Positions 8,860 to 44,516 of a stretch of DNA of 44,516 nucleotides are shown here, piece by piece. The notes under the pieces were generated by a model that saw only the letters and a program-made list of their open reading frames with translations, searched no databases and was not told the origin of the DNA. Position 1 is the first letter of the stretch. Each line of letters opens with the position of its first letter. A program made the translations under genes and the position numbers. Origin of the DNA: Faecalibacterium sp. An122 (GTDB taxonomy: Bacteria; Bacillota; Clostridia; Oscillospirales; Ruminococcaceae); assembly GCF_002160895.1 (NCBI RefSeq), contig NZ_NFLL01000023.1, positions 1 to 44,516 on the forward strand. The letters are read 5' to 3'.

Positions 8860-8996
8860 CAGCGGAAAGATTTTGACCTTCCGGGGCCGCCAGCCCCCGG
8901 AGGTTTGGCCCGGCATGCGCCGGGGAGCCTAAAATCCTAAGTTGCTCTTTGGGTCGCTATTTGGATTTCAAGGAGTGCGCAGAGCGCACTATTCAA
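8860..8996 (-). ncRNA. Structured queT leader, candidate preQ1-type riboswitch
   Basis: The queT transcript would carry about 145 bases of leader. On the minus strand, GATTTT (8931-8936) can pair with AAAATC (8869-8874), enclosing two stable hairpins: CCCGGC-GCAT-GCCGGG (8909-8924) and CCGGGG...CCCCGG (8881-8900). The ribosome-binding GGAG lies just downstream of the closing stem, which would suit translational control. QueT-family genes are often under preQ1 riboswitches, so this is a reasonable candidate. I could not match it to a specific preQ1 class. Confidence 0.4.
8974..8990. repeat. Perfect inverted repeat just downstream of the queT promoter
   Basis: AGTGCGC-AGA-GCGCACT, a perfect 7-base inverted repeat with a 3-base spacer. 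It begins 8 bases downstream of the predicted -10 box, where a repressor operator or the first transcript hairpin would lie. Confidence 0.6.
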
Positions 8997-8997
8997 T

Positions 8998-9026
8998 ACT
9001 ATACCACAGAAAAACGCCGGAAACAA
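8998..9026 (-). promoter_or_regulatory. Promoter of queT-HAD
   Basis: On the minus strand, TTGTTT (9021-9026), 17 bases, then TATAGT (8998-9003). It lies directly after the degV terminator. Confidence 0.55.
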
Positions 9027-9029
9027 GAG

Positions 9030-9058
9030 AAAAATGCCCCCGGCGGCAAACCGGGGGC
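9030..9058 (-). terminator. Terminator of the pdxK-trmL-degV operon
   Basis: GCCCCCGG (9036-9043) pairs with CCGGGGGC (9051-9058). On the minus strand an A and five T residues interrupted only by C follow. Confidence 0.85.
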
Positions 9059-9084
9059 AGATGAAATCAGATTCAGACCGGGGT

Positions 9085-9954
9085 TCAGCGGGCCTTGCCC
9101 ACGTAGGCAATGGCGATGGTGTCGGGGCCGGTGTTGGCCGAGACCACGCCGCCCAGCTCAAAGACCACCACAGGCTCCTGACCAAAGGCCTTCTTGCAGG
9201 CGCGGCGCAGATCCTCCGCCTGCTTGATGTTGGTGTGGCCGATCATGTATTCGAAATCGTCCACACCGGCGATCTTTTTCTTGCACAGGTCCACCATGGC
9301 GGGGATGACCTTGTCATCGCCGCGGACCTTGCTCTCCACCACCGTCTTGCCGTCGATCAGGCTGATGATGGGGCGCAGGCCCAGCAGCTCGCCCGCAAAG
9401 GCGGCGGCAGCCGAAATGCGGCCGCTCTTCTTCATCTGGCGCAGGCTGTAGGGTCCCAGAATGATCTCCATTTTGTCCATCTGGGTCTCGAACTCGCTCA
9501 GGACATGGCGCAGCTCGGCGCCGTTGCGCAGCTTGCGGGCCATCTCGCAGACGTACCAGCCGAACACCATGGAATAGGTGTGGCTGTCCAGCAGGTGAAT
9601 CCGCATCTTGTGCTCGGGGCGCTCCTCCCGCAGCATCCCGCGGGCCATGACGGCGTTGTCATAGGTGGAGGAACCGCCGCGGTTGATGGTGACGTGAATC
9701 ACGTCGGTGTAGCCGGCGTCCACATACTCGCAGTACTTCTGGCAGAACTGGATGGGGGTGATGGCTGCGGTGGAGGGCACGCCCTTGGCCTGACGCATCA
9801 GGTCATAGAATTCCTCGTTGTTGCAGCTCACACGCTCCAGATAGTCGGTGCCGTCCAGCAGGATGTGGAAGCTCATGATGTCGATGCCGTACTTGTCGGC
9901 CATCGACTGGGGGATGTCGCAAGAGGAGTCGGTCAGGATCGCGATTTTGTTCAT
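9085..9954 (-). CDS. DegV-family fatty-acid-binding protein
   Basis: A 289-residue DegV protein. The N-terminus MNKIAILTDSSCDI, the GGSSTYDNAV loop, LRQMKKSGRIS and the GLRPIISLIDGKT segment are family features. DegV (FakB-like) proteins bind a fatty acid and, with a FakA kinase, channel exogenous fatty acids into phospholipid. No fakA is in the window. The start at 9954 was chosen because GAGG precedes it and the conserved MNKIAIL begins there. It is the last gene of a three-gene operon, 8 bases after trmL. Confidence 0.92.
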   Translation of the reverse strand: MNKIAILTDSSCDIPQSMADKYGIDIMSFHILLDGTDYLERVSCNNEEFYDLMRQAKGVPSTAAITPIQFCQKYCEYVDAGYTDVIHVTINRGGSSTYDNAVMARGMLREERPEHKMRIHLLDSHTYSMVFGWYVCEMARKLRNGAELRHVLSEFETQMDKMEIILGPYSLRQMKKSGRISAAAAFAGELLGLRPIISLIDGKTVVESKVRGDDKVIPAMVDLCKKKIAGVDDFEYMIGHTNIKQAEDLRRACKKAFGQEPVVVFELGGVVSANTGPDTIAIAYVGKAR

Positions 9955-42668: not shown

Positions 42669-42727
42669 CGGGGTGTTGCGCAGTTGGTAGCGCGCCTGCT
42701 TTGGGAGAATACGCCCGGGCCACCCCA
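42669..42727 (+). pseudogene. Truncated tRNA-Pro copy
   Basis: The 5' half of a tRNA-Pro (acceptor CGGGGTG, D-arm, anticodon strand to TTTGGGAG at 42707), then a break into AATACGCCCGGG. The anticodon stem cannot close and there is no T-arm. A CACCCC at 42722-42727 could still pair with GGGGTG of the acceptor, so an internal deletion of the 3' half is likely. A 23-base run (42685-42707) is identical to the intact tRNA 71 bases downstream (42756-42778). Confidence 0.8.
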
Positions 42728-42739
42728 CAACTTCATATC

Positions 42740-42815
42740 CGGGTGTAGCGCAGCTGGTAGCGCGCCTGCTTTGGGAGCAGGATGCCGCAGGTTCGAATCC
42801 TGTCACTCGGACCAC
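42740..42815 (+). tRNA. tRNA-Pro (anticodon TGG)
   Basis: A 76-base cloverleaf with encoded CCA. Acceptor CCGGGTG pairs with CACTCGG, including one G-T pair. The anticodon arm CCTGC-TTTGGGA-GCAGG gives TGG, which can read all proline codons with wobble modification. The T-arm GCAGGTTCGAATCCTGT is standard with one weak end pair. It depends on the promoter upstream of the truncated copy and is followed by a terminator. Confidence 0.95.
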
Positions 42816-42825
42816 CTTTCTTAGA

Positions 42826-42851
42826 AAAACCGCCTAAATAGGCGGTTTTTC
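42826..42851 (+). terminator. Terminator of tRNA-Pro
   Basis: AAAAACCGCCT (42826-42836) pairs perfectly with AGGCGGTTTTT (42841-42851) around AAAT. GC-rich chromosomal sequence ends here and AT-rich sequence begins. Confidence 0.9.
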
Positions 42852-43011
42852 TGCGTTTTTAGTTTGAATTTTACTGTTTTAGCGTTTGCTGTTTTGAGGT
42901 GGTTCAAAGAGTGCAATATCGGCGGGCGCATGAGTGAGCGTAGCGGCTGAAACCGCTAAATCCCTAACCCATCCCTAATTGGCAGAAAGCCAAAAGTATA
43001 TGCTACTAATC

Positions 43012-43040
43012 TTGTCTTTCTGCACTTTATAGGATATACT
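43012..43040 (+). promoter_or_regulatory. Promoter of the zinc-ribbon/AbiTii-like cassette
   Basis: TTGTCT (43012-43017), 17 bases, then TATACT (43035-43040). The transcript would start almost at the ribosome site. Upstream (42852-43011) I see a small AGCGG/CCGCT hairpin, a TTGGC/GCCAA hairpin and two TCCCTAA repeats, but no gene. Confidence 0.65.
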
Positions 43041-43059
43041 CATTTGGGAGGGTTGTGAT

Positions 43060-43512
43060 ATGGAGTTAACCATTAAAATTCAAGGTGATAGCGAAGGGTA
43101 TGTCACTTTTGAGTGCCCATTTTGTGGCTCAGAATTTAAACTTCAAGCTGGAGAATATCAGGATGATGAACACCCGTTTGAAGATTTATTCTGCCCCTAT
43201 TGCGGCCTTACACGATATAAGAACGCATTTCTTTCCCACGAGGTAATTGAGCAGGCTCAGGCAATGGCATACAATTATGCTGTCGAGGAACTCAACAAGG
43301 CTTTTGGTAAGATGGCAAAATCTATTAATAGATCTAAAGGCATAATCAAGATGAAGTATCGTCCGCTAAAAAAAGTAGCAACGAAGGAATTGAAGGATAA
43401 AGACACATCAGAGGTAGAATTCAACTGTACTTGTTGCAATCGGCATGTTAAGGTCCTGTACTGTGCTGGTGTGTCCAAAATATTTTGTCCGTACTGTGGG
43501 GTGGATATATGA
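43060..43512 (+). CDS. Tandem zinc-ribbon protein of unknown function (AT-rich island)
   Basis: A 150-residue protein with two CxxC...CxxC zinc-ribbon units: Cys19/22 with Cys45/48 (CPFC, CPYC), and Cys123/126 with Cys143/146 (CTCC, CPYC). A charged helical middle (about 55-115) joins them. Such ribbons may bind DNA, RNA or a protein; no catalytic motif is seen. GGGAGG precedes the ATG. Codon use is AT-rich, unlike the chromosome to its left. Its stop overlaps the start of the next gene (ATGA), so the two are translated together and probably act together. Confidence 0.85.
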   Translation: MELTIKIQGDSEGYVTFECPFCGSEFKLQAGEYQDDEHPFEDLFCPYCGLTRYKNAFLSHEVIEQAQAMAYNYAVEELNKAFGKMAKSINRSKGIIKMKYRPLKKVATKELKDKDTSEVEFNCTCCNRHVKVLYCAGVSKIFCPYCGVDI

Positions 43513-44360
43513 TTACTCTTCGTGAACTCAGAACAATTAGTCTTGAATTTAGACGTGTATCAAGTAATTTTTTAAACTGCGATGATGATACAGCGGATGT
43601 TGCATTGATCCGTTTTTATTCTTATTTGACTAAAACGGAATGGATTCAGGATTTAATCTCAGATATCCTTACCACTACAGAATTTGATTTCAGAGACTGC
43701 TTCCCGGAGCATAGTGATGATTGGTTTGAGGCATCTATTCCAGTAGATGAAAAGCAACATTTCAAAGCTCAATTTGATTATCTCTCTTTTCTTGCTGGGC
43801 GGACTCCAGTGAATGTGTTGGGTGAGGCAATGCACTATTATCACTCTGCAAAAAAGTTTTCGGAAATAATCCAGTCCTTTGTTTGCAACACATTTAAACC
43901 AATGATTGACTACATTAACGATGCTATTTCCATGGAGATGATAGTTTTAGAAGCAGAAACGAAGTTGCCCGTTCCCACAGTGTATCAAACTATTGAAAAC
44001 AACTATGGTACTGCAAATGCACAGGGAACAGGAAACATAACTTCTTCTAATATCAGCACATCCACCGTGTCGGATATCACAGATTTGCTTGCAAAAATTC
44101 TTCCGTCCCTGGATTTGTTGTCTGATGTCCCTCAGGATGAAATTGATAATGTCAAAGACGATTTAGAGTCTGTTGAAGAACAGCTCACTTCTGCCGCTCC
44201 CAAGAAAAAAAGACTGCAAAAGGCAGTGGATGGAATCAAAAAGTTTCTTTCAGATTTTTCTATGAAAGTTGCTGTTTCCGTAGCTGCAGGAGCTGTGACC
44301 AGCGCAGATTGGTTCATGCTTATTCAGAAGTTGGAAGAGTATATCAGTAGCATTGGATAA
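43509..44360 (+). CDS. Unknown protein with AbiTii-like C-terminal tail, possible defence effector
   Basis: A 283-residue protein. Residues 1-150 are mostly helical with no motif I recognise. Residues 160-180 hold a Gly/Asn-rich stretch (NNYGTANAQGTGNIT). An acidic helix (DNVKDDLESVEEQL), a basic patch (PKKKRLQKA) and a small-residue hydrophobic segment (KVAVSVAAGAVT, about 253-264) follow. I recall this order of elements from the C-terminal half of AbiTii-type and many uncharacterised proteins in defence neighbourhoods; this is memory, not a search. The ATG at 43509 overlaps the upstream stop and is preferred over an internal start at 43485. It may act at the membrane or as a multimer. Confidence 0.75.
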   Translation: MITLRELRTISLEFRRVSSNFLNCDDDTADVALIRFYSYLTKTEWIQDLISDILTTTEFDFRDCFPEHSDDWFEASIPVDEKQHFKAQFDYLSFLAGRTPVNVLGEAMHYYHSAKKFSEIIQSFVCNTFKPMIDYINDAISMEMIVLEAETKLPVPTVYQTIENNYGTANAQGTGNITSSNISTSTVSDITDLLAKILPSLDLLSDVPQDEIDNVKDDLESVEEQLTSAAPKKKRLQKAVDGIKKFLSDFSMKVAVSVAAGAVTSADWFMLIQKLEEYISSIG

Positions 44361-44396: not shown

Positions 44397-44516
44397 ACCT
44401 AGGGTGTATCTGAAAACTCAAAAACGCCCAAAAAAGTGTTAAAAAGACAAGAAAAAGACATAAAAGGATTCTATCATAGGCAGTGCAAGGAAGTGATAGC
44501 ATGACGATTCATCGTT
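44397..44516 (+). mobile_element. Possible left end of another insertion sequence
   Basis: After an imperfect hairpin (CCTTAGGT at 44381-44388 with ACCTAGGG at 44397-44404), the sequence GGGTGTATCTGAAAACTC resembles the terminal repeat of several IS families. About 80 bases later an ATG with a ribosome site begins a new frame. The other end is outside the window, so this is only a suggestion. Confidence 0.3.
44501..44516 (+). CDS. Start of a gene cut by the window edge
   Basis: ATG at 44501 preceded by AAGGAAGTGATAGC; the visible product is MTIHR. Too short to identify. If the preceding sequence is an IS end, it would be its transposase. Confidence 0.4.

Follow-up and report, generated by a model that had tools for sequence, protein, structure and literature searches.

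Does a small AT-rich gene pair lying directly after a tRNA gene encode a defence module and, if so, how would its two proteins share the work? This question is raised by the 3' end of the DNA stretch analysed here (the window: 44,516 nt of Faecalibacterium sp. An122, assembly GCF_002160895.1, contig NZ_NFLL01000023.1, forward strand), where gene A (43060-43512, + strand, 150 amino acids) is joined by an ATGA overlap to gene B (43509-44360, + strand, 283 amino acids). Both open reading frames (ORFs) lie where an initial annotation of this DNA had placed them; it took their arrangement to be unfamiliar, and PADLOC-DB 2.0.0 already lists the two proteins as the candidate defence pair PDC-M14. The double zinc-ribbon protein A matches PDC-M14A (PDLC04447) at E 2.2e-48 over residues 2-149, and the best model for B is PDC-M14B (PDLC04448; E 1.4e-115, residues 1-280). 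Near full-length profile matches of both proteins place the pair beyond chance. Judged by its protein sequences, the window pair is a further member of this catalogued, uncharacterised candidate. A preprint by the PADLOC authors is reportedly the source of the PDC entries. PMC12988326 describes such entries as guilt-by-embedding candidates, mostly without experiments, and the term is also used in PMC11514479.

With a probability of roughly 60%, we read the pair as an immune module of the PDC-M14 type, with A as sensor or restraint and the exchangeable C-terminus of B as the output of an abortive-type defence. Direct support comes from the family assignment of both proteins, their near-obligate pairing and co-divergence, an A-B fusion found in nature, the exchange of the B tail for a TIR domain, and defence neighbourhoods; judged by the relatives of the pair, such a sensor-output mechanism is likely. 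A, built of two zinc ribbons and a long helix, would bind the conserved helical N-domain of B, serving B as sensor or as restraint. The trigger that releases or assembles B may be infection, or interference with a restriction or BREX system nearby; B would then kill or arrest the cell through its C-terminal output part, a four-helix tail of the AbiTii kind in the window and a TIR domain in the sister clade. In this reading the tail would be toxic and the pair would protect against phage.

Pairing and co-divergence of the two genes

Searches from either gene revealed a nearly obligate association. All 11 loci with B matches at E 2.2e-16 or better (the window's own excluded) also carry A, and B accompanies six of seven full-length A matches, the seventh being L062. 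A scan of genome contigs with the A4 subclade, in which five loci were records already in the first set, found B adjacent or fused at 43 of 43 A loci: a separate adjacent B was present at 40 (one of which, L097, stops at the contig end), L102 was cut by its contig, L114 was frameshifted and L116 carried the two genes as a single 439-aa fusion ORF in a Prochloraceae genome. In L114, the frames of both A and B are broken. On viral contigs, B was found at four of five A loci, the fifth running off the contig edge, and a Lysinibacillus plasmid carries both genes (E 1.5e-51 and 2.7e-59 to the profiles built here). That the two genes are seldom together elsewhere, which the initial annotation had weighed as an objection to a module, is thus not what these counts reveal. 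Furthermore, a possible B start lies 4, 11 or 14 bases inside the A end in most of 58 unique rows. The A and B tree distances were correlated (r 0.87 over 53 pairs), with none of 2000 permutations as high and the best permuted value at 0.38; this set omits 14 loci that were duplicates, cut or broken loci, fusions or near-copies.

At family level, 6 of 297 genomes gave a strong B match, and at class level 7 of 391, the window's own genome being counted in both; B matched once in the window's genome. The A profile matched 153 of 398 genomes, of which the top eight (own included) were near full length and the remainder were dropped as short zinc-ribbon matches. Used as sole query, the window's B retrieved nothing from genome contigs, viral contigs, plasmids or phages; the closest A subclade had no viral contig match, and the B of L069 matched no phage and one plasmid, that of Lysinibacillus. 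Weak matches of the B searches (eight, L007-L014; five, L021-L025) were dropped, several of them appearing by eye to be chemotaxis receptors or a recombinase and being taken as coiled-coil matches. Two of these dropped matches, L014 and L009, are AbiTii proteins, and two others, L008 and L022, resemble the tail by eye.

An alignment of 53 A proteins (window included) delineated the two ribbons. Residues C19, C22, C45, C48, C143 and C146 are kept in all 53, C125 and C126 in 52, and position 123 is Cys in only four. All eight cysteines named in the initial annotation are present and its first ribbon (C19-C22...C45-C48; 43114-43203, + strand) was right, but the second had been mis-assigned to C123 and is formed by C125/C126...C143-C146 (43432-43497, + strand). 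The AlphaFold2 (AF2) model arranges both ribbons around a long helix of residues 60-91 (43237-43332, + strand), with a mean predicted local distance difference test (pLDDT) score of 86.6. Searches of Pfam, NCBIfam and PHROGs gave weak zinc-ribbon matches for A, among which Pfam Zn_ribbon_3 passes its cut-off; Foldseek retrieved nothing from the PDB at E 0.001 or better for the model, and a PDB sequence search related a zinc ribbon to ribosomal L33 at 0.0048. A side observation concerns L062, where an A-like double zinc ribbon is followed by a C-terminal region with the motif RHIFEH (8974-9930), adjoining GajA; the motif looks HEPN-like, but Pfam gave no HEPN match and the extension was therefore not used.

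An exchangeable C-terminus in B

The AF2 model of B (mean pLDDT 83.9, predicted template modelling score 0.54) comprises three parts. A helical N-terminal domain of residues 1-151 (43509-43961, + strand; helices 4-151), homologous in TIR-type relatives, is followed by a linker of residues 152-186 carrying the NNYGTANAQGTGN motif (43962-44066, + strand; pLDDT <50 at 154-164, 166-168 and 170-183) and by a C-terminal four-helix tail (44067-44357, + strand; helices 187-281). The best PDB sequence match of B reached only 0.055, and TIR-type B had none. A motif like that of the linker, GGQVNIANDN, was also seen ahead of a SEFIR/TIR domain in a gene adjoining the pair in L108 (10326-11615).

The tail is shared with AbiTii. 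Comparison by hhalign of 26 B tails with the C-termini of eight AbiTii proteins yielded Prob 98.1 and 98.2 over 80-81 columns (E 1.2e-13 and 2.9e-14 as a single comparison), while five controls (B tail/AbiTii N; B N/AbiTii tail; B N/AbiTii N; A against both) remained at Prob 0.13-0.37, the two N-domains being compared at Prob 0.13. The Pfam matches of B, listed to E 10, do not include the AbiTii domain PF18864, which also has no match in the window's genome. The AbiTii likeness that the initial annotation had noted for the second protein therefore holds for its tail, whose C-terminal profiles match, and fails for B as a whole, which lacks the AbiTii N-domain; by these alignments, B is AbiTii-like in its tail only. 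The eight AbiTii proteins were L126 (from a search in which 2 of 80 genomes had PF18864, the other, L127, being excluded), L128 (1 of 199), L009 (found via the M14B profile, with an N-part 44% identical to L126) and five plasmid proteins out of six retrieved from 106 records; the short AbiTii genes L127 (215 aa) and L134 (a 702-nt gene) were excluded from the tail comparison. The M14B profile also matches the AbiTii protein of L126 (the same as L014, from another genome) at 2.1e-6, and Corynebacterium glutamicum matched both families, M14B and PF18864. Across 299 genomes, the tail profile at 1e-5 gave four matches, all of them M14B loci. Separately, a stand-alone tail-like protein adjoins the short AbiTii gene in L127 (943-1479).

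In four B proteins (L066, L067, L073 and L121), a TIR domain replaces the tail. TIR_2 was matched above the Pfam cut-off in the first three (E 4.9e-9 to 1.7e-10), and in L121 the domain was identified from the aligned sequence only. All four carry an SxxCxxE motif, whose Glu we take to be catalytic and which would suit NAD+ cleavage. The N-domains of the TIR and tail types are homologous (Prob 99.85, E 8.4e-31), whereas the TIR part and the tail compare at Prob 0.60. In both midpoint-rooted trees, the TIR-type loci form one monophyletic clade (support 0.991 in the B tree and 0.999 in the A tree), which is sister to the group of the window, L068 and L063; the window's B itself has no Pfam match to a TIR domain. 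Two plasmids match the B of L066, that of Lysinibacillus along the N-domain and one of Segatella along the TIR part.

The retention of the N-domain while the tail is swapped for an enzyme-like domain bears on a different assignment of the output, in which the tail would serve for oligomerisation or docking only and the harmful activity would come from the B N-domain or from a third protein of the host. The exchange argues against such a role, as do some AbiTii homologues that likewise bear a C-terminal HEPN domain, absent from Lactococcus lactis AbiTii, according to PMC3710099; we regard a docking-only tail as rather unlikely and prefer the C-terminus of B as output.

Defence neighbourhoods of the relatives

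Many relatives of the pair reside in defence operons, in support of the defence-linked two-gene module that the initial annotation had proposed; the housekeeping or prophage structural loci it had considered as the contrary outcome are not what we found. Of 57 unique loci, 30 are located within or next to BREX, restriction-modification (R-M), Gabija or further defence genes. The per-locus table, which omits the window and nine other loci (six duplicates, L062, L114 and L119), counts BREX at 12 loci, type I R-M at nine, a type III methyltransferase (MTase) within ~3 kb at three, and type II R-M and Drt4 at one each; further neighbours are Gabija in L112, a PLD-helicase with a DUF1156 MTase in L060, bSEFIR in L108 and IetS in L095. 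Some of the 30 loci are contig-cut with one flank visible (e.g. L071, L073, L075, L077 and L102), and L069, L074, L075 and L117 are near-identical, so that locus counts are not independent events. Loci with a kinase (L113) or mad8 (L088) as neighbour, or with distant R-M genes (L058, L076), were not counted as defence loci. The closest relative sits within a BREX operon, in the order brxA-brxB-brxC-(A-B)-pglX-(218 aa)-pglZ-brxL, and the TIR type is found between hsdS and hsdR in L067 and L121.

PADLOC searches at 1e-20 supported this enrichment. The neighbour set (225 proteins, three genes per side, from 38 loci chosen for flank length) matched 187 and 231 families from 85 and 140 proteins, and the control set (141 genes in 16 stretches from ten of the same genomes) matched 11 families from its 141 proteins; these totals are not gene counts, since a single defence protein matches many families.

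Such neighbours could also mean that A-B is an accessory of the host defence operon that modulates or guards BREX or restriction enzymes, for instance in response to phage inhibitors of these, with no autonomous action. The pair is mostly tens of bases or less from the next core gene at the BREX and type I R-M loci, it adjoins Gabija in L112, and type I HsdR homologues exist on other contigs of the window's genome. However, it accompanies many unrelated systems, none of them in view in the window, and a component of one system should be less promiscuous; moreover, the window's genome lacks a clear PglX. We therefore deem an accessory role unlikely, and retain an immune module acting through the C-terminus of B.

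Weighing the sensor-output reading

Several observations weigh against the immune module proposed here. L062 has an A-like protein as a fusion without B, and A and B are divergent rather than co-directional in L061. Co-divergence is expected also from joint inheritance without binding. The PADLOC candidate status rests on genomic context and is thus not independent of the neighbourhood counts made here, and a literature search, to which supplements and separate preprint servers did not belong, retrieved no paper naming PDC-M14. B has no convincing family in Pfam, NCBIfam or PHROGs and no recognised catalytic domain, and Foldseek found nothing at E 0.001 or better for its model in the PDB and viral structures, the viral rows mostly spanning residues 180-283 and barely covering the N-domain fold. 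Hydropathy of B is moderate, the best 19-residue mean being at least 1.6 in 9 of 35 B proteins, so that membrane attack is not indicated. Twenty-seven of the 57 loci are not tied to any defence system in a check that was limited to 13 query proteins and part of the PADLOC scans, on contigs of which some are short. Beside the window pair itself, at the contig end, no defence gene is visible, and the window's genome gave only partial PglX matches at ~1e-4, with no clear PglX and hence no BREX operon to which the pair could be assigned.

A toxin-antitoxin pair that maintains mobile DNA, with B as toxin, A as antitoxin and defence incidental, would suit the small overlapping genes, their co-divergence, the tRNA-linked position and the copies on viral contigs and on one Lysinibacillus plasmid matching both profiles, but the neighbours are much richer in defence families than the control stretches and TIR outputs typically belong to immune systems; we consider a toxin-antitoxin role unlikely.

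Under the sensor-output reading, the uncharacterised PDC-M14 becomes a concrete hypothesis through the tail-for-TIR exchange, the A-B fusion and the AbiTii-type tail of B, and AbiTii, an old abortive-infection protein, would gain a testable effector part. A bolder extension, which we put forward as speculative and unlikely as a whole, is that the AbiTii/M14 tail may form a distinct type of effector domain that acts without enzymatic activity and can be swapped for TIR in M14 or for HEPN in AbiTii, and that the double zinc ribbon may be a general guard sensing inhibition or products of the adjoining restriction, BREX or Gabija system.

A possible insertion site after tRNA-Pro

The island-like position initially described for this AT-rich cassette was borne out: GC content is 0.386 in the block 43001-44000 versus 0.495-0.699 in the remaining 1-kb blocks of the window, and ARAGORN places tRNA-Pro(tgg) upstream of the pair (42739-42814, + strand). 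A truncated 5' half of tRNA-Pro (42671-42707, + strand; 37 nt, 95% identity to the intact gene) stands in tandem with it. A terminator-like hairpin of 14 bp (42822-42853, + strand) lies 3' of tRNA-Pro, so the pair is probably transcribed separately, from its own promoter. The single shared promoter that had been assigned to the two genes is unproven: the promoter-like site upstream of A (TTGTCT-17-TATACT, 43012-43040, + strand) is not above chance, the scan giving five such sites against a shuffle mean of 4.5.

In seven of 20 further genomes from the genus, homology reaches 42707, ending within the truncated tRNA-Pro copy. The seven sister loci fetched have one tRNA-Pro apiece, and the DNA 3' of it is AT-rich in two (GC 0.38 in L175 and 0.39 in L176) and has 0.56-0.70 GC in five; L176 and L177 resemble the window in the tRNA alone and may be different tRNA-Pro loci. 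The contig closes with a multi-copy repeat (44399-44516, + strand), probably an insertion-sequence terminus. Elsewhere in the genome this repeat recurs eight times with 100% identity over 117-118 bp, four times at the start of a contig. Together, the stop of homology at the truncated tRNA-Pro, the AT-rich DNA in two sister loci and the contig-end repeat fit a mobile-DNA insertion site after tRNA-Pro without proving it; a second copy of the tRNA-Pro 3' end was not found in the window's genome at ≤2 mismatches. In L176, from a sister species, we also noted a partial tRNA-Pro copy resembling that at 42671-42707 and, in the DNA after the tRNA, a protein that is integrase-like by eye.

Comparison with known systems

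Relatives of the pair lie within or adjoin BREX and type I R-M operons, whereas A and B themselves match no BREX or R-M model and no clear PglX accompanies them in the window's genome. TIR-effector defence proteins are approached through the sister clade, with its TIR_2 C-terminus, but the window's B is without that domain. AbiTii (PF18864) has a C-terminal tail homologous to that of B and an N-domain that B does not share. The closest likeness is to PDC-M14: although the window pair adjoins tRNA-Pro at a contig end, outside a recognised defence operon, both of its proteins match near full length, and its genes are adjacent with A before B.
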